Assembly: GCA_934481355.1 (NCBI GenBank)
Contig: CAKSPH010000012.1
Location: forward strand, 1 to 62,636
DNA length: 62,636 bases
Source: an uncultured Oscillospiraceae bacterium
Lineage (GTDB): Bacteria; Bacillota; Clostridia; Oscillospirales; Ruminococcaceae
Direction: 5' to 3'
This document shows positions 633 through 35,569 of this stretch, piece after piece. Numbering within the stretch: the stretch's first letter is position 1; every line of letters starts with the position of its first letter. The translations under genes were made by a program, and so were the position numbers. A model generated the notes under the pieces. The model searched no databases. It had not been told where the DNA came from and saw only the letters and a list, made by a program, of their open reading frames with translations.

Positions 633-1562
633 TTATACGTTGAAATATCGGTTTTTGGCGCGCTGAACAGCCGCGATGAATTCCCGGTCAAAGTCGCTCA
701 ACCGGTAGTCGCGGCGATATATCAGGACATCTTTATAAGGCTTGTCCGTGCCCTTTACCTTTATTTGAGTCAGGTTGTAATTTTCCAGCAGGGTTTTTGG
801 GACGGGTGACACCCACATGAATGTATCGGGGACAGTCCCGAGGATAACGAACTGAGTTCCGCGTTCGTAAACAAAGATCCTGCGGTCAACGAATTCCGTG
901 AGCTCAGATTTTCTCACATCGATCATCGGAACTGATGGAACATACGGGTCAGAGTGACAGACCTCGATGTACTCCTTGAGGTCGTCCAGTTCGACTTCTG
1001 CATTGGAAGCCAGGGGGTTATCCTTTGAGATAAGCATGAGATATGTGAATTCCGCTATTGTCTCGCTGGTGAGCTTTTTATCCTTGAAAAGGTCGTTGAA
1101 GTACTTCTCATAGGACGACTGATAGCGAACTATCCCGAGGTTGAAGTCCTCGCGGACAACGCTGTTTACGGTGTTCATCGAGTTTGTTTCGCAGTAGGAG
1201 AACTCGGCAGGGGAGCCCTTCTTCATACATTTGGAGAAATCTGCCATTGCAAAGCTGAGGTAGCTTGCCCGCGGCACGCTTACCGAAAAGCTCTGTTTCT
1301 TCTGCCTGCCGTTCTGGTAAATCTGCTCCACCTCGTCCACCTTCTGGACGATCTGGCGGGCGTACTGCAGGAATTCCTCGCCGTCCGGAGTTATAGAGAT
1401 CCCCTTTGTTGTGCGCCGGAAAATGGTTATGCCGAGGGATTCTTCCAGCTCCTTAATCGCGCGGCTGAGGTTTGGCTGACCCATGTAGAGGTTTTCAGCC
1501 GCCTTGCTTATCGAGCGTGTTTTTGCCACTTCAACGGCATATTTAAGATGAAGGATATTCAA
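633..1562 (-). CDS. LysR-family transcriptional regulator
   Basis: A protein of 309 residues, the usual LysR length. Residues 1-60 form the winged helix-turn-helix (SISKAAENLYMGQPNLSRAI, then LGITIFRR), and the remainder is the periplasmic-binding-like effector domain. The start is a TTG codon preceded by AGGCAGGA. It lies between a lipoprotein gene upstream and adhE downstream, all on the minus strand. LysR proteins usually control a neighbour, but the strong Rex-like site makes adhE a doubtful target. The effector is unknown. Confidence 0.88.
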   Translation of the reverse strand: MNILHLKYAVEVAKTRSISKAAENLYMGQPNLSRAIKELEESLGITIFRRTTKGISITPDGEEFLQYARQIVQKVDEVEQIYQNGRQKKQSFSVSVPRASYLSFAMADFSKCMKKGSPAEFSYCETNSMNTVNSVVREDFNLGIVRYQSSYEKYFNDLFKDKKLTSETIAEFTYLMLISKDNPLASNAEVELDDLKEYIEVCHSDPYVPSVPMIDVRKSELTEFVDRRIFVYERGTQFVILGTVPDTFMWVSPVPKTLLENYNLTQIKVKGTDKPYKDVLIYRRDYRLSDFDREFIAAVQRAKNRYFNV

Positions 1563-1639
1563 CTCAATTCCTGCCTTTCGTTGTATGATCTCAGGTAAAA
1601 TGTAGTGCTGATTTCTGTTAAAGATTTATCAAATCTGGC

Positions 1640-2917
1640 CTATTGCTCTGCAAGAAGCGCCTTTGCTTCCGCCGGAGATACCATCCCTGCAAGCACGGCG
1701 TCGTAGTCTTTAATAAGAATAGTATTCTTTGTAGGATAATCAGATATTCTGATTATCACAGATGTTCTGTTTTGAAGGCCGAGTGGATCACTGGCAGTGC
1801 TGACTTCCGAAAACGCGCCGTTATCATATGTGTAGAACGATACTCCGCCCATGAATGACGAGCCGCCGACGGCATAGTACTTGCCGCCTATGATCTGCGC
1901 TTCCGGAATAATATCAACAGAAGGAAGTACTCCGGTGCTGTCCATCGCATAAAGCTCGTTTATGTCGATTGGGCTGCCGACCACTGTGTAGTATCTGTGC
2001 GCAGACGTGTCGTACACCATAAATTCGCCGCTGCACTGCCAGCCGTAGGTCATCAGAAAGCAACCGGACTTATAGTAAGCGCCGCGGTAATCATAGTGCG
2101 TGAACATTTCCCTGTTTCGCACGCCGATAAGCGGGGAATGGGTGCTTACCCCAAAATCGCCGTAAGCGTTGAACACCAGCTGCTTGTCTGCACCGTAATC
2201 CAGCATATCCACAGAGTACAGGTGTTCAAGTCTGTTCCACCGATATTCCGGGTCGGCTGTTCCGCGCCAATTGACAAATACGACATAATCATACGTTTTA
2301 GGCGTGTCAAGAATGGTTTCCAGCACGACAAACGCTTCTTCTGACCCGTCGCTGTCGTAATCGCTGATATAAGCGCCTTTTACCTGAATGTCGAGCTCGC
2401 CGTTTGTGAGCCGGTCGCCCAGGGTATCGGTGCCGTCAGAGGAATAGTTTACCGTCATGTCAACGGCCGCCGGATTGTCCTTTATCCATTGCGACACTAC
2501 CTTGTATCTGTCGGATTTTTTTACCGCTTCGACTGCGATATCTGTGAAATATTCGTATTTCTCATGCCCCGTATCAGGCGGTATATCCTCGGTGTAATCG
2601 TAATCTACAAAGATATTGTTTTCAGAAAGCTGCGTCATCTGCGGATATGGTTCATAGTCCATCCGATATAATATTCCAACTGAACCGCCAGGCGGGAATT
2701 CCGCATTTGCTGTATCGTTATCCGCCGAAACCTGCGTTTCCGGCTCAGATGTCGTTTCAGAATCGGTCTGCGCTGTTTCAGCTGTGTCCTGCTCCGAATC
2801 CGCAGTTTCTTCAGCGGAAATCGGGGCAGGGGAGCTGTTTTCTGAAACCGGGGCTCTGCACCCCGAAAGGAGTAATGCTGATATGACTGCCGGGGTAATG
2901 CCTCTGCGAAAGTTCAT
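1640..2917 (-). CDS. Predicted lipoprotein of unknown function
   Basis: The 425-residue product starts with a short charged N-terminus, a hydrophobic segment and the lipobox LLLSGC (Cys about residue 20), so it should be lipidated and anchored outside the membrane. Residues about 25-70 form a Ser/Thr/Glu/Asp-rich linker typical of lipoproteins that cross the wall. The globular remainder is not recognised; it contains acidic loops (YDSDGSEEAFVVLE) like those in calcium-binding repeat folds. ATG follows GGAGG. It begins 14 bp after ilvH ends and may be read through from ilvBH. Confidence 0.75.
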   Translation of the reverse strand: MNFRRGITPAVISALLLSGCRAPVSENSSPAPISAEETADSEQDTAETAQTDSETTSEPETQVSADNDTANAEFPPGGSVGILYRMDYEPYPQMTQLSENNIFVDYDYTEDIPPDTGHEKYEYFTDIAVEAVKKSDRYKVVSQWIKDNPAAVDMTVNYSSDGTDTLGDRLTNGELDIQVKGAYISDYDSDGSEEAFVVLETILDTPKTYDYVVFVNWRGTADPEYRWNRLEHLYSVDMLDYGADKQLVFNAYGDFGVSTHSPLIGVRNREMFTHYDYRGAYYKSGCFLMTYGWQCSGEFMVYDTSAHRYYTVVGSPIDINELYAMDSTGVLPSVDIIPEAQIIGGKYYAVGGSSFMGGVSFYTYDNGAFSEVSTASDPLGLQNRTSVIIRISDYPTKNTILIKDYDAVLAGMVSPAEAKALLAEQ

Positions 2918-2931
2918 ACCAACGCCTCCTG

Positions 2932-3402
2932 TTAATCCCTTTCCAGTGCGGAAATGCCGCTTCTCACCATCTTGACGATGCCGAACGGCTTTAACAGGCT
3001 GATGAAGCTGTCTATCTTCTCAGGCTTGCCGGTGAGCTCCAGCATAATGCTGTCCTCGCCGATGTCCACGGATTTCGCGCGGAAAAGGTTAGCCACCTCC
3101 ACGATACCGCGCCTGTCCTCAACGGAGCGCCCCGCGCGGACGATAACGTGCTCACGGCATACGGCGTCGGTGAGGATCTTGACTTCCTTTACGTCGTGGA
3201 GCTTCATGAGCTGGTTCTTGATCTGCTCCAGCACTCTGAGGTCTCCTGCAACTACGATGGTCAGGCGGGAGATCTCCGGGATCTCCGTTTCAGCCGCGTT
3301 GAGGCTCTTGATATTGAAGCAGCGTCTGCTGAACAGGCTGGAAACCCGCAGGAGAACGCCCTCGTTGTTGGCTACTTTTACTGATAATACATATTCCTGC
3401 AT
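2932..3402 (-). CDS. ilvH: Acetolactate synthase small (regulatory) subunit
   Basis: This is the regulatory subunit of acetohydroxyacid synthase, which binds branched-chain amino acids and modulates the catalytic subunit in valine, leucine and isoleucine synthesis. The N-terminal ACT domain (VANNEGVLLRVSSLFSRRCFN) and the C-terminal domain (EVANLFRAKSVDIGEDSIML) are intact, and the 156-residue length is normal. The ATG at 3402 is chosen because GGAGG lies 9 nt upstream; a GTG 6 nt earlier is poorly spaced. The start region lies next to the ilvB stop codon, so translation is probably coupled. Confidence 0.95.
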   Translation of the reverse strand: MQEYVLSVKVANNEGVLLRVSSLFSRRCFNIKSLNAAETEIPEISRLTIVVAGDLRVLEQIKNQLMKLHDVKEVKILTDAVCREHVIVRAGRSVEDRRGIVEVANLFRAKSVDIGEDSIMLELTGKPEKIDSFISLLKPFGIVKMVRSGISALERD

Positions 3403-3404
3403 GA

Positions 3405-5093
3405 TCACGCCTCCAGATCTATTGATGTGATGGGATTAACTACCGGCTTTCCGGCGGGGATCATCGGCAGAACGTTGATATCCCTGTCGATACGGACTTC
3501 GATCATTACCGGAGCAGATTTTGATATTTCAAGCGCCTGCTTTATAACCGGAGCTATCTCTTCGGTCTTTTCGATGATGAAGGTCTTTATGCCGAAAGCC
3601 TCGCCGAGCTTCACATAGTCAATGTGGCGTGCGTCAAGCGTTGTTTCTGAGAAGTGCTTGTTGTAGAACAGTCTCTGCCACTGGCGCACCATTCCGAGAA
3701 CGTTGTTGTTTACAACCACCTCGATGATGTTGATTCCATGCGCGGAAGCCGTAATGAGCTCGTTAAGGTTCATTGCGAAGGAGCCGTCGCCCGCCATGTT
3801 GATAACTGTCTTGTCGGGATTGCCGGTCTTTGCGCCGAGTGCCGCGCCGAGTCCGAAGCCCATAGTGCCGAGTCCGCCGGAGGAAACGAAGCTGCGCGGA
3901 TTCCTGCACTTGTAGTACTGAGCCGCCCACATCTGCGTCTGACCGACCTCCGTTGTGATGATGGCTTCGCCGTTTGTCTGACGGTCGAGTTCCTCGATAA
4001 CAGCCTGCGGAGTTACCGGGAGCTGTTCTGTTCCGGTCTGTACCGGCTCGCCGAAGTCGCCGTCAAGTATCTCGGCGCACCACTCCGGGTGTGACTGCCT
4101 GTCCAGCTTGGCAATGAGCGCGGAGAGCACCTGCTTCACATCGCCGGTAACCGTGGCAGTGGATTCAATGTTCTTGTTGAATTCAGCCGGGTCAATATCA
4201 ATGTGGATTATCTTAGCTTGCTTGCCGAACACGGAAGTGTCTCCGGTAACGCGGTCGGAGAAGCGTGTGCCCACGCCGATGAACAGGTCACAGTTGTTGA
4301 GGGCGTATGCCGCCTTTACCGTACCGTGCATTCCGAGCATACCTATGTAGCGGTGGTCAGTCTCATCATATGCGCCCTGACCCATGAGCGAGCAGGAAAC
4401 GGGCGCGTCAGTCAGCTCGGCGAGCTTTTTCAGCTCCCCGGAGGCTCCGGAGGAGATAACGCCGCCGCCTGCGTAAATGAACGGCTTCTTCGCAGAAGCG
4501 ATGAGCTCTGCCGCCGTGTTTATCTCGTCCGCATTGAGCGGAGCGGATTCCTCGGGCTTCTGGGCAGGCAGTCTGGTGTATTCGGCGAACGCCTGTGTGA
4601 TGTCCTTGGGGACGTCCACAAGAACCGGACCCTTTCTGCCGGACATTGCGATCTGGAACGCAGCCCTGATGGTGTCTGCAAGCTCGTACACGGATTTCAC
4701 GATGAAATTGTGCTTGGTTATCGGCATTGTGATGCCTGTGATGTCAACCTCCTGAAATGAATCCAGACCCAGCAGGCCGCAGGAAACGTTGCCAGTGATG
4801 GCTACCAGCGGAATTGAATCCATGTATGCGGTGGCGATACCGGTGACGAGATTAGTCGCGCCGGGACCTGACGTTGCGATAACTACTCCGGTCTTTCCAG
4901 TGGAGCGTGCATAGCCGTCAGCGGCATGACAAGCGCCCTGCTCATGGCAGGTAATGACATGATGAATTTTGTCGCTGTATTTGTACAGGCTGTCGTAAAT
5001 ATTAAGAACAGCGCCTCCCGGATAACCGAACACGGTATCCGCGCCCTGTTCGAGTAAGCATTCAACGATTATATCTGAACCGCTAAGCTTCAT
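3405..5093 (-). CDS. ilvB: Acetolactate synthase large (catalytic) subunit
   Basis: A thiamine-diphosphate enzyme of 562 residues that condenses two pyruvates, or pyruvate with 2-oxobutyrate, as the first common step of branched-chain amino-acid synthesis. The catalytic glutamate is Glu51 in ITCHEQGACHAADGYAR. The ThDP/Mg motif is MAGDGSFAMNLNEL with NNNVLG near residues 430-460. The central FAD-binding domain is present. The ATG at 5093 is preferred over a GTG at 5105 because AAGGGTG is better spaced from it. It is the first gene of an ilvB-ilvH unit transcribed from the promoter at 5151-5179. No T-box or leader peptide was recognised upstream. Confidence 0.96.
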   Translation of the reverse strand: MKLSGSDIIVECLLEQGADTVFGYPGGAVLNIYDSLYKYSDKIHHVITCHEQGACHAADGYARSTGKTGVVIATSGPGATNLVTGIATAYMDSIPLVAITGNVSCGLLGLDSFQEVDITGITMPITKHNFIVKSVYELADTIRAAFQIAMSGRKGPVLVDVPKDITQAFAEYTRLPAQKPEESAPLNADEINTAAELIASAKKPFIYAGGGVISSGASGELKKLAELTDAPVSCSLMGQGAYDETDHRYIGMLGMHGTVKAAYALNNCDLFIGVGTRFSDRVTGDTSVFGKQAKIIHIDIDPAEFNKNIESTATVTGDVKQVLSALIAKLDRQSHPEWCAEILDGDFGEPVQTGTEQLPVTPQAVIEELDRQTNGEAIITTEVGQTQMWAAQYYKCRNPRSFVSSGGLGTMGFGLGAALGAKTGNPDKTVINMAGDGSFAMNLNELITASAHGINIIEVVVNNNVLGMVRQWQRLFYNKHFSETTLDARHIDYVKLGEAFGIKTFIIEKTEEIAPVIKQALEISKSAPVMIEVRIDRDINVLPMIPAGKPVVNPITSIDLEA

Positions 5094-10888: not shown

Positions 10889-11527
10889 ATGGCAGTGACA
10901 ACCAGAAACAATACGGACAAGAGGGTTATACGGACGAAGAAAGCGATACGCACAGCATTGTTCAAGCTCATGGAAACAAAGGACATTGCCGCGATAACGA
11001 TAAGCGAGCTCACGTCTCTTGCAAACGTCAACCGCAGGACTTTCTACACTCATTACAGCAATATAACGGATATTCTTGACGAAACGGAATCCGAGATAGT
11101 AGATAGAGTCAGCGGAGTTATACAGCGTTTTGATTCCAAAAGTCTCACGGACAGCACATACACTCTGTTCATGGAGCTCAGCCGGCTTGTCAGCGAGGAA
11201 TACGGCTTCTATTTCCATCTTATGAAAAGCGACTTGCGCGGGGTGCTTGTCACCAGAATGAAGACGCTGCTGAAAGCTTCAGCCGATAAGATACTCGGGC
11301 GGTTTACGATACCCTCGGATGTGGAAAATGTGTTCCTGCTTTCCAGCTTCATAAACGGCGGTTTTCTTAATCTGTTCCTGGAGTGGAACAAGTCCGGCAG
11401 GGATATTTCCATAGAGTCGGCTGCAAAGGTGGCAAGCGTTATGGTGGATTTCTGCGTGAAGAACGCGCGCCATATTTCCGACACCATCGAAAAGACCGAA
11501 TTTCCAGACGTACAGCATGATCAGTAA
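10889..11527 (+). CDS. TetR/AcrR-family transcriptional regulator
   Basis: A 212-residue regulator. The N-terminal helix-turn-helix is clear (RTKKAIRTALFKLMETKD, then ITISELTSLANVNRRTFYTHY), and the C-terminal helical ligand domain is not assignable to a specific effector. The ATG at 10889 is used because AAAGGGAG precedes it; an in-frame GTG at 10850 would lie almost on the predicted transcription start. It is monocistronic and convergent with mfd, and the shared hairpin at 11536 ends it. Its target is unknown. Confidence 0.87.
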   Translation: MAVTTRNNTDKRVIRTKKAIRTALFKLMETKDIAAITISELTSLANVNRRTFYTHYSNITDILDETESEIVDRVSGVIQRFDSKSLTDSTYTLFMELSRLVSEEYGFYFHLMKSDLRGVLVTRMKTLLKASADKILGRFTIPSDVENVFLLSSFINGGFLNLFLEWNKSGRDISIESAAKVASVMVDFCVKNARHISDTIEKTEFPDVQHDQ

Positions 11528-11535
11528 AACAGCAA

Positions 11536-11560
11536 GCCCCGGTTCAGTGCGAGCCGGGGC
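11536..11560. terminator. Terminator between tetR-type gene and mfd
   Basis: GCCCCGGTTC / GAGCCGGGGC (10 bp with one G-T pair), followed on the plus strand by GTTTTTTATT. It also lies just past the mfd stop, but the opposite strand has only a weak T-run. Confidence 0.88.
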
Positions 11561-11565
11561 GTTTT

Positions 11566-14500
11566 TTATTCTTCTGAGCCTTTAACGCTGTTCATTGTAG
11601 TGATGACCGTGCGCATTGCGTCAAGCGGCTTTTCGCCCTTGTCGAGCGTGACCTTGACGTGTGCTCTTCCGGTTGGTTCAAGGCGCATTCTGTTTCCGTA
11701 GACATCGGACAGCGCCGCGAGCTTCTTCATGTCAAACTTTGACATATAGAATATCAGGTCGTTCTTCTGCTGGGTTATCTCAACGATGTTGGAGGCTCCA
11801 GCCATGTTGCGCAGCCGTGCGACTTCCACCAGACCAAGCACGGATTTCGGCGGATCGCCGTATCGGTCGATGAGTTCGTCCGTAACGTCGATTCCGTCCT
11901 CTTCGGTCTGGATACGCGCTATCTTGCGATAGCAGTCAACGCGCTGGGCCTGATTCGAGATGTAGTCCTCCGGGATATATGCGTCAATTTTGATATCGAC
12001 TAGGCACTCTTCCTTGTGGACGTCCTTTTCGCCGCGCTCCTCCCTTACCGCTTCGTCAAGCAGCTGAAGGTACATATCATATCCGACATTTGCAAGGTGC
12101 CCGGACTGGCTCGAGCCCAGAATACTTCCCGCGCCGCGTATTTCGAGATCGCGCATTGCAATGCGGAATCCGCTGCCGAACTGCGTGAATTCCCGGATAG
12201 CGTCAAGGCGCTTCTGCGAGATCTCGGAAAGTATTTTTCCGCGCTGGAACGTGAAGTAGGCGTATGCGCGCTTGTTTGTTCTGCCTACACGGCCGCGGAG
12301 CTGATGGAGCTGCGCAAGCCCCATGTAGTCGGCGTTCTCGATTATCAGCGTGTTAACATTCGGAACGTCAACGCCAGTCTCAATTATAGTCGTGCAGACG
12401 AGAATATTCAGCTCGCCGTCAAGAAGCTGCCGCCATACCTCGAGTATCTGTTCCTCTGTCATACGTCCGTGCGCAACGCCGACCTTTGCGTCCGGAATGA
12501 GCGAGCGTATTTTCTCCGCGCAGCTGTAAATTGAATCTATCCTGTTGTGGATATAGTAGACCTGTCCGTTCCTGCGGAGCTCCTTCTGGATTGCCTGCAT
12601 TATCACGCCCCAGTCGTGCTCCATGACGTAGGTCGTGATGGGCTGTCTGTCCTGCGGAGGCTCGTCTATTACGCTCATGTCGCGTATGCCGCTCATAGCC
12701 ATGTTGAGGGTCCGCGGTATAGGCGTTGCGGAAAGCGTCAGGATATCCACACCGGAGAACATCTCCTTGAATTTCTCCTTGTGGGCAACGCCGAAGCGCT
12801 GTTCCTCGTCGATTATTACAAGTCCGAGATCCCTGAATTTTATGTCGTTCTGGATTATTCTGTGCGTGCCTATCAGGATATCCACCTTTCCCTCTTTCAG
12901 GCGGCGGAGTATATCACGCTGTTCAGCCGGGGACTTGTATCTGGACAAAAGCGCCACGTTGATGGGAAAACCCTCCATACGGGCGCAGCAGGTCTGGAAG
13001 TGCTGCCATGCAAGCACGGTGGTCGGAACAAGGATCGCGCACTGCTTACCGTTTTCAGCGCACTTGAACGCCGCCCGGAGCGCCACCTCGGTCTTGCCGA
13101 AGCCGACATCTCCGCACAGAAGCCGCTCCATCGGGACGGGTTTCATCATGTCAGCCTTGATTTCGTCCACACAGCGGAGCTGAGAGTTGGTCTCAATATA
13201 ATTGAAATGCGCCTCGAAATCGTCCTGGAGCTTGTCGTCCGGCGGAAATTCATAGCCTTTGCTTCTCATTCGCCTGGAGTACAGCGCAATGAGCTCTGAA
13301 GCCATCTCCTTTGCGGCGGCTTTAGCCTTTGCCTTGGATTTCTGCCACTGGTCGGAGTTCAGCTTGTTGAGCTTCACGGTGCCCGCGTCCCCGGAGCCGA
13401 TGTATCGGGAAACAAGATCGAGCTGCGTTACGGGAATATGCAGGACATCGGCGCCCGCATAGCGTATCTTGATGTAGTCCTTTGCCACGCCGTCCGCGAC
13501 AAGCTTGTGCACTCCGTCAAAAATACCGATTCCGTGGGAGTAATGCACCACAAGGTCGCCGATAGAGATATCGGTGAGCGAACGTATTTCCTCGCCCTTT
13601 TTCTTCTTGGCAGGGCGCTGCTTTCTGTCCGCATGGACTGCCGTGTGAGTGAATACCGCGAGCTTTCCCTCCGGGTATTCGATACCTGCGGTCAGCGTGC
13701 CCGGAGTTACGATAATGCGCTTCGGGAGCGGCTTTTCCGGCTCTGAGGAATATTCAGCCTTGTATCCGTCATCTGCGAGGTCGGCGGCGAGGGTCTTTGC
13801 GCCCTTTTCGGTTCCTGAGAATATCATGCAGGCGAAGCCGTTTGCGAGGTAGCCGTCAAGCTCCTGCTTCAGTACGGCGAATTCGCCGCTCCACGGGGAG
13901 GTCTGCACTGCGCCCCGGACGTCCAGCATAATGCCGAGCTCCATTCCGCCGCCGCGTATAAACGTGTCGAAATACACCCTTGAGCGGCTTTCCAGCACGG
14001 AGTAAAGCTCGTTTTTAGTCAGCATGAACCGGTCGAGACCCTTGCAGAGCTTCTTTTCCTCGGTCAGGATTTTCAGATCCTCAATGTGCTGGAGCGCAAC
14101 GCCGCGGTAGGATTCCTTTACGGAGGTGTTCTCGCAGACGAAAACGGCCTTCGCGTAGTCCAGCACCGTGGCTTCCTCCGGATAGCAAAGAGGGAAGTAG
14201 CGGTCGAGCGTGCTCAGCGAAATACCGCCGCGTATCTTCTGTACATCGGAGGAAAGCCGTTCGCGCACGCCGTCAGCGTTCTTTCCGCGCAGCTTTGCGG
14301 CAAGCGCCTCTATTCGAGTGCAGAGCTCCTCGCCGGAATCAAACAGCACCTCTCCGGCGGGGGAAATTCGGAGCTCCTCCACAGGGTCGGTCCTTCTCTG
14401 GGATTCAAGGTCGAAGTAGGACATACTGTCGATGGTGTCGCCCCAGAGCTCGATTCGGCAGGGGGCGGCGCTGCTCGGCGGGAATATGTCCACGATCCCT

Positions 14501-28771: not shown

Positions 28772-28830
28772 CTCATCGAGATATCATTTTGATATCATCA
28801 AGAAATCATGGTACATGGGAGGTCACTTCA

Positions 28831-29790
28831 ATGAAACAACATAATAACATGAACTACGAGGAAAAGGAACTTAAAGCCCCCAGCGGCTGGGCTGTGCTGT
28901 TCATTACCATTCTGCTGTATCTGGCGGCGCTTGCACTGCTCATATTCTGCGCCGTCAATATCACTGACGGGAAGTTCTCAGGCTACGACGCAGGGCTTAT
29001 CGCCTGTATCATATGGCTGTCCATCGGATGGTTTCCTTTCATCGGTCTGCGCGTCATAAAGCCGAACGAAGCGCTAGTGCTCACGCTTTTTGGCAAGTAC
29101 ATCGGCACCCTTAAGCATGAGGGCTTCTATTTTGTGAATGTATTCAGCGTTCCGGTGGTTCCGCATTCCGGCGGCATAAATCCTGCAAAGCCCGGAGTTC
29201 CGCGCACCAAGATATCACTCAAGGCTATGTCCCACGACAACCGCAAGCAGAAAATAAACGACCAGATGGGCAACCCCATCGAAGTCGGAATCGTGGTCAT
29301 ATGGCGCGTTGTGAATACTGCAAAGGCTGTTTTCAACGTTGACGACTATGAGGAATTCATGTCCATTCAGGCGGATTCCACCCTGCGCGACGTTGTCCGC
29401 TGCTACCCTTACGACTCCACGGATTCTGACGAAAAGTCCCTGCGCGGCTCCTCTCAGGAAGTCTGCGAACAGCTCAAGGCTACGCTTCAGGAGCGTGTTG
29501 ACAACGCCGGTCTGGAGATAATCGAGGCACGCATAACCCACCTTGCATACGCACCGGAGATCGCAGCGGCGATGCTCCAGCGCCAGCAGGCTACCGCAAT
29601 AATCGAAGCACGCCAGAAGATAGTTGACGGCGCGGTCGGCATGGTCGAGATGGCTCTCAATAAGCTCAGCGAAAGCAACGTCTGCGAGCTGGACGAGGAG
29701 CGCAAGGCTCAGATGGTAAGCAATCTGCTGGTGGTACTCTGCGGAAACAAGGACGCCCAGCCGGTAGTCAACAGCGGCTCCATTTATTGA
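28831..29790 (+). CDS. SPFH/band-7 membrane protein
   Basis: A 319-residue protein; ATG at 28831 follows GGGAGG. Two N-terminal transmembrane helices (about residues 20-45 and 52-75) anchor an SPFH domain ([85 protein letters not shown]). The C-terminal [18 protein letters not shown] helix is typical of prokaryotic stomatin relatives that scaffold membrane domains. It is the first gene of a four-gene operon with YhfC, a ribbon-helix-helix protein and SdpI. Confidence 0.9.
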
Positions 29791-29798
29791 GGTGCGCA

Positions 29799-30593
29799 AT
29801 GACTGATATCGTTTTTTCAGGTGAAGCGCTGATTTCATACATTTTGCTTATCGTTATAGGTCTAGCCATTCCTGTGGGGGCAGCGCTGATATGGAGGTTC
29901 GGTTTCAAAAAGGGTACGCTTGCAGCTACATTCGCAGGGGCAGGTATGTTTCTCGTGTTTGCCATGATACTGGAGTCCCTTCTCCATCAGGTAATGCTGC
30001 CTCTGGTGAGCGGAAACCTTGTCCTCTACTGCGTTTATGGCGCTCTTGCGGCGGGAATTTTCGAGGAGACCGCGCGGTTTCTGTGTTTCAGATTCCTGAT
30101 GAAAAAACAGCTCAGCGCGGAAAATGCGGTCTCCTACGGAATAGGTCACGGCGGATTTGAGATGATCAGCGTTCTGGTAATCACATCATTCGGCGTGATC
30201 GTTATGGCCGTTTCAATGAATTCCATGGGGGCTGCGGAGTTCATTAAAAATGCCTCCGGCGGAAACGAAGCGATTGCCACGCAGTTAACTCAGCAGATGG
30301 AAAACTACGCCGCAATGAACATACCGCAGGCTTTTCTTTCAGTCTATGAGCGCATTGTTGCAATGGCATTCCACATTTCCATGTCTGTCATCGTAATGGA
30401 AGCCGTAAAGGTCAAGGGCAGGATCTGGCTTTATCCGGCCGCAGTCGTACTTCACGCGCTTCTGGATACTCCCGCCGTTCTCTATCAGAGCGGAGTAATC
30501 TCAATATGGCTGTGCTATATCATCATGACGATTTACACCGCGCTGATCTGCTTCATCGGCGTAAAGAGGTACAGGTTTCTGAAAACCCAGTAA
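29799..30593 (+). CDS. YhfC-family intramembrane metalloprotease-like protein
   Basis: A polytopic membrane protein of 264 residues with about seven helices. The EExxR motif (FEETARFLCFRFLMKK) and membrane histidines in GIGHGGFEM, MAFHISMSVIVM and LHALLDTPAV match the YhfC/PrsW/CPBP-like glutamic-type intramembrane protease group. The start at 29799 overlaps the RBS region right after the SPFH stop. In this operon it may process or regulate the SPFH or SdpI protein; substrate unknown. Confidence 0.83.
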   Translation: MTDIVFSGEALISYILLIVIGLAIPVGAALIWRFGFKKGTLAATFAGAGMFLVFAMILESLLHQVMLPLVSGNLVLYCVYGALAAGIFEETARFLCFRFLMKKQLSAENAVSYGIGHGGFEMISVLVITSFGVIVMAVSMNSMGAAEFIKNASGGNEAIATQLTQQMENYAAMNIPQAFLSVYERIVAMAFHISMSVIVMEAVKVKGRIWLYPAAVVLHALLDTPAVLYQSGVISIWLCYIIMTIYTALICFIGVKRYRFLKTQ

Positions 30594-30614
30594 AACGCAG
30601 AGGAGATCAGCCGA

Positions 30615-30803
30615 ATGTCAGAAAGCGACAAGAAGGAAAAAAAGCAGATACCGCTGAGGCTGTCAGCTTCACTCTACAACGAGCTGATGAAATGGGCTGA
30701 GGACGACTTCCGCTCAGTAAACGGGCAGATAGAATACCTGCTGACGGAATGCGTGAAATACCGCAGGAAGCACGGCAAATCCGACAAGGAGGACGATGAA
30801 TGA
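30615..30803 (+). CDS. Ribbon-helix-helix (Arc-type) DNA-binding protein
   Basis: A 62-residue protein with the Arc/MetJ pattern: a beta strand with alternating basic residues (KQIPLRLSASLYNELMKWAE) then a helix-turn-helix pair (SVNGQIEYLLTECVKYRRK). AGGAGATCAG precedes ATG and its stop overlaps the SdpI start (ATGA). Arc-like proteins act as autorepressors or antitoxins; no toxin gene is adjacent, so autoregulation of the operon is more likely. Confidence 0.8.
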   Translation: MSESDKKEKKQIPLRLSASLYNELMKWAEDDFRSVNGQIEYLLTECVKYRRKHGKSDKEDDE

Positions 30804-31165
30804 GCGACAACATCGTGTACCTGCTGAGCTATATCCCTACTCCGCTGATATGCCTGTTAGCCGGACTTATGAGCTGGAGGTTCCCGCCGAGGTACGGTGA
30901 GAACGTAGGATACAGAACAAAGCTCTCAAAAAGAAGCGAACAGACATGGGATTTTGCTCAGGTATTCTGGGGCAGAATGGCGGTGCTAACCAGCATTCCG
31001 GTGTTCCTGCTTTCAATGGCGGCGGGTATTTTGCAGATTACACTGAACGCCGATGAAAATACCGGGCTTATCATGTGCTGTGCCATAGTGACGCTTCAGC
31101 TTGTTCCTATATTCGTCAGCATCGGCGTTACGGAATCCGTGCTGAAAAGGAACTTCGGCAAATAA
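30800..31165 (+). CDS. SdpI-family membrane protein
   Basis: A 121-residue protein with three transmembrane helices and the SdpI signature ENVGYRTKLSKRSEQTWDFAQ between helices 1 and 2. In Bacillus, SdpI is the immunity and signalling protein against the SdpC toxin. No sdpABC genes occur here, so it may serve general envelope stress or immunity to others' toxins. Translation overlaps the upstream RHH gene by 4 bp; a terminator follows. Confidence 0.82.
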   Translation: MSDNIVYLLSYIPTPLICLLAGLMSWRFPPRYGENVGYRTKLSKRSEQTWDFAQVFWGRMAVLTSIPVFLLSMAAGILQITLNADENTGLIMCCAIVTLQLVPIFVSIGVTESVLKRNFGK

Positions 31166-31208: not shown

Positions 31209-31979
31209 TCAGAAGCGGTTCTTTATCTTCTGGAGCGCCCCTTTTTCAAGGCGGCTGACCTGCGCCTGACTTATTCCTATCTCCTTTGCGACCTCTACCT
31301 GAGTTTTGCCGCGCAGAAACCGCAGATTCAGTATATGCTTCTCGCGGTTGCCAAGCTGGCGTATCGCCTCTTTCAGGGATATCTCGTCCAGCCAGTTGTC
31401 ATCGTCGTTGTGATCCCCGAGCTGGTCGAGGACATACACCGTGTCCCCGGATTCTGAGAAAACAGGCTCATACAGCGAAATCGGCTCGCTGACCGCTTCC
31501 AGCGCAATAACTACTTCAGCGCGCTCCGCACCTATCTCTTTGGCGATTGCCTCCACTGTCGGCTCCCTGCCGTTTTCAGTGGTGAGCTTCTCCCGCGCCT
31601 GCATTGCCCGATAGGCGAGGTCGCGCATGGAGCGGCTGACGCGCACCGGGGAGTTATCCCGGATATACCGCCGCAGCTCCCCCTGAATCATTGGAACGGC
31701 GTAAGTCGAAAACCTGACCGGCTGTGTTATATCAAAGTTATCTATCGCCTTTATCAGCCCGATACAGCCTACCTGAAACAGGTCGTCAGGGCTCTCTCCC
31801 CTGCCGGCAAAGCGCTGTATAACGCTGAGTACAAGCCTCAGATTCCCGTTTATAAGCTCCTCGCGGGCTTTCATGTCGCCCTCCCGCGTCTTTTTCAGAA
31901 GCTCCATCTTTTCGCTTTCCTTGAGTACCTTTAGCTGCGACGTGTTAACGCCGCTTATTTCTACTCTGTTATAATACAA
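31209..31979 (-). CDS. sigG: Sporulation sigma factor sigma-G
   Basis: A 256-residue forespore sigma factor. RVEISGVNTSQLKVL at the N-terminus, NGNLRLVLSVIQRFAGRGE, DDLFQVGCIGLIKAIDNFD and FSTYAVPMIQGELRRYIRD (region 2), RVSRSMRDLAYRAMQ (region 3) and GKTQVEVAKEIGISQAQVSR (region 4) follow Bacillus SigG closely. TTG at 31979 gives MYYNRVEIS, matching the family start, and GGGAG lies 9 nt upstream; a GTG at 31988 is alternative. It is not linked to spoIIGA-sigE as in many Firmicutes. A candidate sigma-G-type promoter lies upstream. Its presence implies sporulation capacity. Confidence 0.93.
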   Translation of the reverse strand: MYYNRVEISGVNTSQLKVLKESEKMELLKKTREGDMKAREELINGNLRLVLSVIQRFAGRGESPDDLFQVGCIGLIKAIDNFDITQPVRFSTYAVPMIQGELRRYIRDNSPVRVSRSMRDLAYRAMQAREKLTTENGREPTVEAIAKEIGAERAEVVIALEAVSEPISLYEPVFSESGDTVYVLDQLGDHNDDDNWLDEISLKEAIRQLGNREKHILNLRFLRGKTQVEVAKEIGISQAQVSRLEKGALQKIKNRF

Positions 31980-32038
31980 AAGAACCACTCCCGACCTGCT
32001 TGATTTTGTACAAGTAGTATTGTCAGAAAGTGGTTCTT
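31980..32038 (-). promoter_or_regulatory. Inverted repeat over the sigG ribosome-binding site
   Basis: AAGAACCACT (31980-31989, plus strand) and AGTGGTTCTT (32029-32038) are perfect 10-bp arms. In the minus-strand transcript the 3' arm overlaps the end of GGGAG and abuts the TTG start. In transcripts reading through from DUF368 the stem would hide the sigG start or act as a weak terminator; transcripts from the promoter at 32015-32044 would lack the 5' arm and be open. Confidence 0.5.
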
Positions 32039-32058: not shown

Positions 32059-32931
32059 TTACTGTGCCTTGCTCTCTTCGGACTTTCCTCCGAGCTTCTC
32101 AACGAGGATCGAGGTCAGAACGCCGAACAGCAGGCAGACAAAGCCAAATCCGGTCTGGAGATTGAATCCGAAGCCCGCCGGGAGTATCGCATAAACCGAG
32201 CCGGCCACAAGTCCCATTATCGCGCTGTATGACATGAGCTTGTGCTTTTTCATCAGCGTGGAGATAAGCTTTGCGCCGAGGATTATTCCGAGAAGCACGC
32301 CTATGGCTGTCGGAATGATGACATAGAAATTCAGAGCCTTGAGGTGCAGCGAGGAAATTACAGTCTGATATACTCCAAGAAGCATCATTACGAAAGAGCC
32401 GCTCAGACCCGGGATTATCATAGCAACCGCCGCAACAAACGTACAGATAAGCAGCTTGATGGTCATGAACAGGCTGAATCCTTCCACTGCCTCTGCGCCG
32501 GGAATAAGGTTTGCCGCCTCCATGTAGTTGTTCAGCACTGTGAGTCCCACTACCAGCACTATCGCGATAACAAATGGGACCGCGCAGACAGGTTTCAGCT
32601 TGTTTTCAGAGGTTCCCATGCGGTATATCATCGGAATGCTTCCCACGATAAGACCGATGAAGTACATATTGGTCTGGACGCCGAAATTCTCAAACAGATA
32701 TGTGACTACAGCCGCAAAGCCGAGAATTCCTATCGCGCCGCCTATTCCGAAGAATATCAGGAACACGATGTTCTTGAAAATCGCCCTTATCCCGGATATC
32801 GCCTCGGTAAGCTGATCGTAGATTCCGAACACCACAAGCATCGTTCCGCCGGAAACTCCGGGGATAACATTCGCGATTCCAAAAACGATTCCGCAGAGGA
32901 CAAGCTTCAGGTAATACAGAAATTTCTTCAT
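32059..32931 (-). CDS. DUF368 polyprenyl-phosphate transporter
   Basis: A 290-residue, roughly eight-helix membrane protein. DUF368 signatures are the two related loops NVIPGVSGGTMLVVFG (about residues 21-36) and MIIPGLSGSFVMMLLG. DUF368 proteins are established undecaprenyl-phosphate flippases that return the lipid carrier of cell-wall synthesis to the cytoplasm. It starts 9 bp after the P-type-ATPase-like gene, whose stop lies in the RBS region (AAGGAG), so they form an operon. Confidence 0.92.
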   Translation of the reverse strand: MKKFLYYLKLVLCGIVFGIANVIPGVSGGTMLVVFGIYDQLTEAISGIRAIFKNIVFLIFFGIGGAIGILGFAAVVTYLFENFGVQTNMYFIGLIVGSIPMIYRMGTSENKLKPVCAVPFVIAIVLVVGLTVLNNYMEAANLIPGAEAVEGFSLFMTIKLLICTFVAAVAMIIPGLSGSFVMMLLGVYQTVISSLHLKALNFYVIIPTAIGVLLGIILGAKLISTLMKKHKLMSYSAIMGLVAGSVYAILPAGFGFNLQTGFGFVCLLFGVLTSILVEKLGGKSEESKAQ

Positions 32932-32940
32932 ATAATCTCC

Positions 32941-35397
32941 TTATTCAAATTTTATTATTGAGCGCACCACAACATATCCGAGCGGCGGAATTATTCCGGT
33001 CACAATGGAAATAAGGGTGGCAAGAAGGTCGATTCCGGTCATTCCAAAGATGGAATTCAGTCCGGGAATAAAAACGAGGAGTATCGCTGTCACAGCGGGA
33101 GCAAGTACTCCAAGCATAGCGGGTTTTCCTGCCTCGGACAAGCCGCGGAACGGATTTCCGGGCGTGAGATTGATGAACGTGAACAGCGATGTGCAGAAGC
33201 CGAAGCTAAGCAGGGAGCAGCTTCTGGCAAAATCAACGTTAGTACCGTTGTACATGAACATATAGGAGGCTATCGAAACCGCTCCACAGAGCGCTCCGAC
33301 AATAACCGCCCGCAGAATGAACCGGTAGTTTATATGCCTGTTTGTGATGAAGTCGGAAGGAGGCATATTATTCCTCATGTCGGCGCGGTTGCAGAGCCCT
33401 GCAAATGCCGCAGCAGGCAGAATAAACATCGTCAGCACAGCAATAAGAGCGGGATTCAGCATGAGCTGCGAATTTCCGAAAAGATTCAGCGTGCTGAGAA
33501 GTATCAGCGCGAGATATCCGGAGATCATCACTGCGCAGGCACGCTTAATGTTCCTGTGAACCTGCCGTGCCGAGGCTATCATTCCCGCAACTGCTGCAAG
33601 ATTATCGTCATGCATGATGACATCGGCGGTCTCAAATGCGCTTCCGGAGGCGTTCTCGGAGATGGTTATTCCTATGTCGGAGCGCTCCATTGCTTCTGCG
33701 TCCTCGGCGCGGGTGCCGGTCATCGCAACGACCTCGCCGCGCTTACGGAGCTGCTCTATAACATACAGCTTCTGCTCCGGGGTCACGCGCGCATAGATGT
33801 CCGCGTCAAGAGGAAGCTCCGAGCCATACTTTACGGATTCGGAAATACTCCGCCCGGTGACTACCTTTCCGGAAAGGCCTATCATTTTTCCGGTCGCGGC
33901 GGCGGATTCCGCATTATCCTCGGTGAACATCACTACCCGGACTCCCGCGCGCTGGCAGGTCTTTACCGCAGACGGCACGGAATCCCTCATCGGCGCTGAG
34001 AACGCCGCAAATCCTACGAAAGTGTACGAGAATCCCGCAGTCTCATCACAGTCGCGTTCTTCGGCGTCCGCACAGGCAACAGCCATTACCTGCCAGCCGC
34101 GGGAGTAATACTCCTTCTTCATTTTCTGGGCGGCGTAGAGCTCCTCGCCGTGGAACTTGCACAGCGGGAGTATCTGCTCAGGGGTTCCCTTGATGCAGTA
34201 AAGGCGGGATTCGCCTATCTCCCAGAGCGCTCCGCTCATGAGATCGTTGCTGTCGGGAATACGCTCCACGAATTTATACTGCTCATGCAGCGAGGAAATT
34301 TTCTCGTCAAAGAACGCCGCCTTTACCAGCAATGCGCGCTCGGCTTCGTCCGTGGTGTCCGGCTCGATGGCGAGCGCGGATATCTTGAACATCAGTTCCT
34401 GACTGGGCGAGAATATGTCCTGAACTTCAAGACGGCTCTTTGAAATCGCGCCCTCTTTTTCCACGCACAGGACGGACATGGTATTCAGCTTTTCAATGTC
34501 CGAAAGGGATTTTACAAGCGCGCTCCTGGTGCTCATTTCGGAAGCGCAGCGGGTGTAGTAAATTCTTATTATCGTATCAAGCCCTGTCGGCAGGAAGCAC
34601 AGACCGAGTGTTATCCCTCGCATTGCAGATTCGAAAACCTCGTTGCCGTAGAGTATCCATGCGACCATCGAAATAAGCGCCAGAACAGCCGCAGTCGCGG
34701 AGCAGAGCGGCAGGAGCTTCTGCACGATACGCTCCATTGAGGTGAAATAGTGATGTTTGGGAACTACTTCGCCCAGCTTGTGGTAGTACTTTGTGTCAAC
34801 TCCCGTAGCGCTTACCTTGCAGACTGCAACTCCGGTGAGTATCTTTGTGCCGCTGTAAACGAAAGTCGGTTTCAGCTCGGATTTTGATATACCTCCGGCA
34901 TATTTTGCGGCGGGCTTGTTCGAGCCAGTGAAAATGCTCTCGTCAACAGTGAGGTCGCGTGACTCCTGGATCATCGCGTCTGCCGGGACGCACTCCCCAG
35001 CCTGAACTATGATTATGTCCTCAGGGACTATGTATTCCTTTTCGATGAGTTCCATTTTTCCGTGGCGGATAACGCGGAATTTCACGACGGTGGATTCCCG
35101 GATATTGTCAAGTTGCTGGTCAGAGCCGATTCCTGCCTTTACGCTTATGATAACGTACACGATATCCAGAAGGATTATCATAAGTCCGGTAAGAATGCCA
35201 CTGCTGAAAAAGCTGAGCACTCCGGCAATGAACATGAGAAGCACCGCCGGAGAGAAGATCACCTTTCCCGGATTGAAGCACTCCTTTGGCTTGTCGTTTT
35301 TTGTGTATATGTTAAGACCGTACATTTCCGTGTTTTTTTCCACGTCCTTGTCAGTCAGCCCGAAATAATCTTCCTTGAAGTTGAAAAACTGCGCCAT
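32941..35397 (-). CDS. P-type ATPase-like protein with degenerate catalytic motifs (pseudo-ATPase)
   Basis: 818 residues with the layout of cation-transporting P-type ATPases: N-terminal cation-ATPase domain, paired TM helices, A-domain (GDxVPAD-like QAGECVPADAMIQES, DESIFTG), TM4 (GLCFLPTGL), P/N domains, C-terminal helices. The catalytic motifs are altered: DKTGTLT reads EKEGAIS (the phosphorylated Asp is Glu313), TGES reads TGSN, DPPR reads APMR, TGD reads TED, and TGDGVNDA reads TGTRAEDA. N-domain KGTPE and surrounding structure are kept and the frame is intact. Transport by phosphoenzyme chemistry is therefore unlikely; a regulatory or scaffold role is inferred. Co-transcribed with a DUF368 gene. 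ATG at 35397 follows AAAGGA. Confidence 0.87.
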   Translation of the reverse strand: MAQFFNFKEDYFGLTDKDVEKNTEMYGLNIYTKNDKPKECFNPGKVIFSPAVLLMFIAGVLSFFSSGILTGLMIILLDIVYVIISVKAGIGSDQQLDNIRESTVVKFRVIRHGKMELIEKEYIVPEDIIIVQAGECVPADAMIQESRDLTVDESIFTGSNKPAAKYAGGISKSELKPTFVYSGTKILTGVAVCKVSATGVDTKYYHKLGEVVPKHHYFTSMERIVQKLLPLCSATAAVLALISMVAWILYGNEVFESAMRGITLGLCFLPTGLDTIIRIYYTRCASEMSTRSALVKSLSDIEKLNTMSVLCVEKEGAISKSRLEVQDIFSPSQELMFKISALAIEPDTTDEAERALLVKAAFFDEKISSLHEQYKFVERIPDSNDLMSGALWEIGESRLYCIKGTPEQILPLCKFHGEELYAAQKMKKEYYSRGWQVMAVACADAEERDCDETAGFSYTFVGFAAFSAPMRDSVPSAVKTCQRAGVRVVMFTEDNAESAAATGKMIGLSGKVVTGRSISESVKYGSELPLDADIYARVTPEQKLYVIEQLRKRGEVVAMTGTRAEDAEAMERSDIGITISENASGSAFETADVIMHDDNLAAVAGMIASARQVHRNIKRACAVMISGYLALILLSTLNLFGNSQLMLNPALIAVLTMFILPAAAFAGLCNRADMRNNMPPSDFITNRHINYRFILRAVIVGALCGAVSIASYMFMYNGTNVDFARSCSLLSFGFCTSLFTFINLTPGNPFRGLSEAGKPAMLGVLAPAVTAILLVFIPGLNSIFGMTGIDLLATLISIVTGIIPPLGYVVVRSIIKFE

Positions 35398-35524
35398 CAG
35401 CACACGTCCTTTGTAATAACATTTATTGTTTGCTTTTCAGCATAACTATACATTTTATATTTTCGCATATTTTAACAAAAAAATCAAGTGCTTTTTACGT
35501 TTTTTAAGATTTTTTTTACAAAAA

Positions 35525-35550
35525 AACCGCGCCCTTTTATGAGCGCGGTT
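35525..35550 (-). terminator. Terminator of glgA
   Basis: AACCGCGC / GCGCGGTT hairpin followed on the minus strand by TTTTTTTG. Confidence 0.88.
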
Positions 35551-35569
35551 TGAAATTCAAGTTTCCGGC

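Follow-up and report, generated by a model that had tools for sequence, protein, structure and literature searches.

Degenerate P-type ATPases encoded next to PopT-type translocase genes in an order of Clostridia: probable non-catalytic subunits of a predicted lipid-carrier transporter

The window, that is, the whole stretch of 62,636 nucleotides from an uncultured Oscillospiraceae bacterium that was analysed, encodes a P-type ATPase without key catalytic residues, and with a probability of roughly 0.6 this protein is a subunit without catalytic activity that controls or stabilises a predicted PopT-type translocase. Because a pump fold, lost sites, evolutionary constraint, newly fixed residues and a fixed partner occur together, a non-catalytic subunit is the best reading of the gene. 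The residue losses, the purifying selection, the common position of the degenerate ATPases in the tree and their conserved pairing with one PopT subfamily were all observed; the two genes are probably co-transcribed, and their products may touch each other and serve in wall-precursor transport. How the recycling of undecaprenyl phosphate across the membrane is energised and controlled is an open question, and the association of a dead pump with one PopT subfamily makes a control subunit testable. The relevant features of the window are the following.

32941..35397, minus strand: degenerate P-type ATPase, 818 aa from the ATG at 35397, reading frame open from a GTG at 35403
34918..34929, minus strand: TGSN for TGES (A-domain dephosphorylation motif), E183 gone
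34582..34590, minus strand: PTG for PEE/PEG in M4, first cation-ligand Glu gone
34441..34461, minus strand: EKEGAIS for DKTGTLT, phosphorylated Asp351 replaced by Glu
34177..34191, minus strand: KGTPE, retained N-domain motif (K515), equivalents of F487, K492 and R560 absent
33985..33996, minus strand: APMR for DPPR, D601 gone, R604 retained
33913..33924, minus strand: TEDN for TGDN, G626 replaced by Glu, likewise in 119/120 close homologues
33697..33720, minus strand: TGTRAEDA for TGDGVNDA, Mg-binding D703 replaced by Thr, D707 retained
33544..33567, minus strand: RQVHRNIK, segment in which the degenerate family has newly fixed residues (see Q614 below)
32059..32931, minus strand: predicted DUF368 / PopT-type undecaprenyl-phosphate translocase, 9 bp downstream of the ATPase
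35524..35551, minus strand: terminator-like hairpin and T-run in the glgA-ATPase interval (pattern match; 7 found versus 5.0 expected from shuffles)

The reading frame at 35397-32941 (minus strand) is full length and has both P-type ATPase homology and the A-, P-, N- and transmembrane-domain architecture. Each of the residues by which an active pump was judged, namely the phosphorylated Asp, the Glu of TGES, D703 and the M4 Glu, is missing. The motif residues are numbered as in SERCA and are given their usual roles in P-type pumps. A preliminary description of the window had reported five altered catalytic motifs in an intact frame, and all five changes were read exactly as it gave them. The match to the kdpB model is weak (59 bits, cut-off 528) and the adjoining downstream gene encodes DUF368 in place of a KdpA-type partner, so that the protein does not belong to KdpFABC.

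The same losses were found in a family of homologues, for which two sets were compiled. The close set holds the best 120 of 434 matches at E <=0.001 (protein search, 7998 scored candidates), and the wider set holds the best 120 of 559 matches at E <=1e-60 from a search seeded with more distant members. Many of these 240 homologues are near copies and both searches started from degenerate seeds, so that the proportion of degenerate sequences is fixed by construction, while the absence of intermediates with the full set of residues is informative. E183, D601 and D703 are absent in 120/120 of the best close homologues, the TGES Glu being replaced by S, D, N or T, D601 by A or S, and D703 by T, I or V; the phosphorylation Asp D351 is E in 119, K in 1 and D in 0. 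Near-constant new residues in this set include Glu in place of G626 and Arg in place of G704 (119 each), and E495 and R565, each present in 119/120, are candidates for a Glu-Arg bridge replacing the metal. K352, G354, K684 and D707 are retained in 120/120, and at the D627 site 69 have D and 50 have E.

The wider best 120 form a graded mosaic of EKSG, EKTG, DKSA, DKTG and DKAG, with TGD or GDG retained in some; distant degenerate members that retain DKTG (e.g., P0220 and P0232) have lost other essential residues. Across the 240 listed homologues, E183 is retained in 1, D601 in 0, D351 in 42 (all of them among the wider best 120) and D703 in 17. When these four residues are considered jointly, none is kept in 191 homologues, one in 38, two in 11, and three or four in 0. 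All four are present in 35/35 intact reading frames, a number in which three frames are double-counted, as they are in the 48 given below, because two loci (L035 and L036) share three ATPases with 0-1 differences.

Motif loss is a trait of the whole family and neither recent nor accidental. The preliminary description had regarded intact DKTG in orthologues as the sign of a recent loss, and Asp was found at this site in 0/120 of the best close homologues. The alteration of all five catalytic motifs would also be seen in a decaying pseudogene whose frame has not yet broken, but full-length relatives carry the same losses in 120/120 of the best close homologues and dN/dS amounts to 0.054-0.18, by which both a recent loss and a pseudogene are ruled out, the latter having a probability close to zero. 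A quirk of a single lineage was likewise ruled out by the degenerate homologues in further genomes and clades.

It is very unlikely that ATP is still hydrolysed by a changed chemistry in which Glu stands in for Asp and the metal has other ligands. The invariant K352, K684 and D707, the acidic residue at D627 in nearly all of the best close homologues and the D351 of 42 members of the wider best 120 could be accommodated by such a chemistry, but E183, D601, D703 and the adenine-stacking Phe are jointly gone in 120/120 of the best close homologues, and in active pumps a D351-to-Glu mutation has been reported to abolish phosphorylation.

Changes in the membrane part were also found. The first Glu of the M4 PEE/PEG motif is absent in 240/240 listed homologues. 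In a predicted helix (651-670), positions 658 and 662 (window numbering) are acidic in 29/29 intact PEEFP pumps and mostly T/S and L, respectively, in the close homologues. The replacement of acidic cation-site residues, mostly by small or neutral ones, might suggest that the transmembrane part has become a passive path or groove for undecaprenyl phosphate, with PopT as co-translocase, as P4-ATPases are lipid flippases. Such a path is improbable, however: the closest intact relatives bear cation-pump PEEFP motifs, and the window ATPase matches the P4 model TIGR01652 with only 28 bits against a cut-off of 431, so that a P4-type sequence was not recognised.

The nucleotide pocket differs between clades. 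In the window's clade, the column of the adenine-stacking Phe is a gap in 120/120 of the best close homologues, K492 is kept in 0/120, R560 in 11/120 and K515 in 117/120. Since the stacking Phe is gone, an ATP-sensor role appears unlikely in this clade, and binding of ATP to the N-domain, a point that the preliminary description had put forward for checking, is disfavoured there. The loss of the Phe and K492 and the frequent loss of R560 would make a membrane, lipid or protein signal a more likely input than ATP. Among the 120 listed members of other degenerate clades, F or Y occupies the Phe site in 119 and K or R the K492 site in 107, with R560 in 3, and nucleotide binding or sensing might persist in these proteins.

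Other positions have become newly fixed. Q614 is found in 120/120 close and 119/120 other listed members, and the corresponding residue is Arg in 29/29 intact PEEFP-type pumps; the segment 613-620 (RQxHxNIK) contains residues whose fixation is new in the degenerate proteins. Similarly, S683 is present in 240/240 listed degenerate homologues, and Pro in 29/29 intact PEEFP pumps.

In an ATPase tree of 55 sequences (quick method, root set on six rows picked by the author), 34 degenerate rows fall on one side of a branch (SH-aLRT 100) with a long stem (1.4), and in the tree as rooted their sister group consists of the intact PEEFP-type pumps. The change from D to E at the phosphorylation site requires at least two changes on this tree. 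The single degenerate branch, together with the repeated D to E changes, suggests that catalysis was likely lost once, and that the motifs then eroded separately and unevenly in each lineage. By the NG86 method, dN/dS ranges from 0.054 to 0.18 over 11 degenerate pairs, compared with 0.137 for a single intact pair; L008/L009, the degenerate pair furthest from saturation (dS ~0.8), has a value of 0.069, and dS is near saturation in most of the others. An ATPase without catalytic residues is thus under strong purifying constraint. The preliminary description had suggested selection for a non-catalytic role, and support for it comes from the losses shared in 120/120 and from these dN/dS values, with dS mostly near saturation.

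The pairing of the two genes was scored by one script over all loci. Among 26 degenerate loci, 24 were testable (L001 and L018 were excluded as lying at contig ends), and in 24/24 of these a DUF368 gene comes after the ATPase in the same orientation, giving 25/25 with the window. The gap between ATPase and DUF368 gene is at most 81 bp in 22/24 loci and 185 and 587 bp in the other two, the latter (L073) containing one 55-aa ORF. In comparison, DUF368 was found downstream of 0/48 testable intact P-type ATPase ORFs of the ATPase-search set, from which L052 and L092 (contig ends) and L054 (found via PopT) were excluded. The Fisher p value for this difference, computed with kinship ignored, is 1e-19; loss and pairing each lie on one branch of the tree, so that the correlation may represent one event.

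The pairing nevertheless spans three diverged clades, the ATPases of clades 2 and 3 being ~30-35% identical to that of the window. Across 27 loci, 49 gene families were found in at least two loci, and the ATPase (27) and PopT (25) are alone in occurring in all three clades, the two loci without PopT both stopping at a contig end. Three families occur in two clades, namely an ABC transporter (five clade-1 loci and one clade-3 locus), an APH-like kinase (three clade-2 loci and one clade-3 locus) and one unnamed family (L016 and L017), and 44 are confined to one clade; the neighbourhoods around the pair mostly differ between loci. A gene order kept in this way is a functional link, which is not the same as contact. 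The link between the ATPase and DUF368 that the preliminary description had drawn has thereby become stronger than it was when noted, the pair being kept in 25/25 testable loci of three diverged clades.

One intact ATPase beside a DUF368 gene was also observed. In L054, which is one of 20 loci fetched via DUF368, a Ca-pump-like ATPase (1343-3955; DKTGTLT, TGES and PEALS) lies upstream of a DUF368 gene with a gap of 0, and pairing is therefore not strictly tied to catalytic loss. The same genome also encodes a degenerate ATPase (L018). No second directly adjacent pair for an ATPase of this type was found among the listed matches in 295 genomes, compared by eye; in one genome (G030), such an ATPase is preceded at a distance of ~3.6 kb by a DUF368 gene in the same orientation. 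By a rough estimate, one such pair in 111 DUF368 genomes is about the chance level, and an intact ATPase with PopT as the ancestral state was rejected, this being a single case.

The start of the partner gene in the window is preceded by a ribosome-binding-like AAGGAG that overlaps the ATPase stop codon. Its product matches PF04018 with 132 bits (cut-off 26, 3e-38) and contains GVSGGT and PGLSGS. The best NCBIfam model is PopT (142.5 bits), whose equivalog cut-off of 400 is not reached, and the protein is therefore called PopT-type rather than PopT proper. In the PopT tree (quick method, midpoint root, long-branch warnings), the 25 rows of paired PopTs lie on one side of a branch with SH-aLRT 99; L070 was left out of it, no PopT of 220 aa having been recovered there by BLAST. 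A total of 22 positions are fixed in the 25 paired PopTs and rare in 19 other PopTs, and the GVSGGT and PGxSGS motifs are kept in 20 aligned paired PopTs. Judged by length, 13/25 paired PopTs have an insert of ~80-100 aa, located, in the aligned copies, between the two DUF368 repeats. Carriers include L014:6786-7907, L017:10491-11588 and L005:2612-3784, and the window copy is without it. No Pfam match above cut-off was found in the insert in five proteins scanned, and the structure prediction for the insert-bearing PopT of L017 reached a pLDDT of 48 and was set aside.

Upstream of the pair, the hairpin at 35524..35551 would split it from glgA, so that its unit would begin with the ATPase gene. 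glgA was rejected as a unit member, as no glgA-like gene was matched in the loci of relatives and the terminator-like hairpin lies between. A membrane-related run of genes was noted at 28789-31165 of the window (an SPFH/Band 7 protein, a YhfC-type intramembrane protease and an SdpI/YfhL-like protein). In L014, a gene for a class A penicillin-binding protein (1678-4110; transglycosylase and transpeptidase) lies ~2.7 kb from the clade-2 PopT gene. In clade 1, the pair often lies beside sigG (31209-31988 in the window), and L002 has a sigE-like gene and spoIIGA, which are sporulation-programme genes, near the pair (11357-13776).

These neighbours bear on another explanation, in which the degenerate ATPase acts on its own as a sensor or regulator in the membrane, is only co-expressed with PopT and signals to other envelope functions without contacting PopT. 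The pairing would then reflect co-inheritance, and a sporulation or envelope signal is conceivable in view of the sigG/sigE-family gene near 11/14 clade-1 pairs and spoIIGA in L002. Such a sensor is a minor possibility, because the sigG family is confined to clade 1, PopT alone is kept across the three clades, and the paired PopTs form a distinct subfamily with fixed residues of its own.

With regard to distribution, 295 genomes of the order were sampled (motifs read in 23 of 48 listed matches), and among the matches read a degenerate ATPase was found in 10 genomes, whereas DUF368 was found in 111. No degenerate ATPase was present among the matches read in 101/111 DUF368 genomes, implying that DUF368 is generally independent of it. 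A second, overlapping sample of 394 genomes yielded a degenerate ATPase in 15 (motifs read in 39 of 40 matches, G174 being left out), and in 391 genomes of the class the top matches included two already known cases, the next 20 being all intact. From this sampling of order and class, the family looks confined to some lineages of one Clostridia order. The record labels of the homologues are Oscillospiraceae, Ruminococcaceae, uncultured Clostridia and an [Eubacterium] siraeum MAG, with a few deviating ones (Lachnospiraceae, Bacteroides sp.).

Taken as a subunit of the PopT-type translocase, the degenerate ATPase would work as follows. Without D351, E183, D601 and D703, no phosphoenzyme would be formed and resolved, and without the M4 Glu no cation would be carried, so that the protein would not pump. 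Instead, it would bind PopT in the membrane and gate or stabilise it, and movement of the lipid carrier back to the inner face would depend on the conformation of the dead pump. As the latter could not energise PopT, any energy needed would come from elsewhere. On slightly better than even odds, the pair constitutes a two-subunit lipid-carrier flippase, in which a PopT translocase is obligately regulated by a dead subunit derived from a cation pump. If true, the family would be the first of P-type ATPase pseudoenzymes in bacteria, with lineage-specific motif erosion and a fixed partnership, and would provide the first protein dedicated to controlling carrier flipping. The P-type ATPases would also gain a clear pseudoenzyme branch in bacteria, with graded losses and with clades that have or lack the ATP pocket, and these would form a natural experiment on what a pump fold does without catalysis.

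In the open-access literature, to which most subscription journals and all of bioRxiv are external, no paper was found that joins a P-type ATPase with DUF368, or a P-type ATPase with either a pseudoenzyme or Eubacterium siraeum. No report of the degenerate family was found there, which is not proof of its absence. One study of DUF368 proteins (PMC9876793) describes single- and dual-domain forms and fusions with PAP2 or BacA, and the term ATPase appears once in its main text, about SecA. In the part of Sit et al. considered here, the energy source of DUF368 transport is discussed only as a possibility.

Among known systems, the intact PEEFP-type bacterial pumps (e.g., L022-L030 and L033-L034) are the sister group in the tree as rooted and share their fold with the degenerate proteins, at a similar length; judged by sequence, the best relative with a solved structure is LMCA1 (lmo0841) of Listeria. 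They differ in keeping DKTG, TGES/TGE, DPPR, TGDGVND and the acidic residues of M4 and M6, and those from the ATPase search have no DUF368 neighbour where tested. The intact pumps of four loci (L033-L036) have a GF-GDY-GL-type N-terminal stretch like that of the degenerate family, whose ancestor they may resemble. In KdpFABC, too, a P-type ATPase protein is linked with a membrane transport protein from a different family, according to portions of three papers (PMC8385062, PMC9651954, PMC6255902). There, however, KdpB is active and its partner KdpA is K+ channel-like, whereas here a degenerate ATPase is paired with DUF368.

Degenerate P-type-like proteins have also been described in eukaryotes. 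In apicomplexans, a degenerate P4-ATPase-like domain is joined to a guanylate cyclase (PfGCbeta), and excerpts of the same source state that loss of the ATPase domain leaves the Toxoplasma relative mislocalised, and that the cyclase part of P. yoelii GCbeta functions without this domain (PMC6592433); the system differs in being eukaryotic, P4-like and fused to a cyclase. Human TMEM94 is P-type-like and lacks TGES, and the relevant sections of one structural study report no ATPase activity, micromolar AMPPCP binding and no named PopT partner (PMC12134183), whereas another paper, in the part considered, calls it (as ERMA) an active ER Mg2+ ATPase (PMC13322241), so that its activity is disputed. 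TMEM94 differs in being eukaryotic and in having D417, and it is set beside the degenerate family by description alone. None of KdpFABC, PfGCbeta and TMEM94 is classed as the same family as the degenerate ATPases. PfGCbeta and the disputed TMEM94 nevertheless show that P-type-like proteins which lack some of the motifs are retained.
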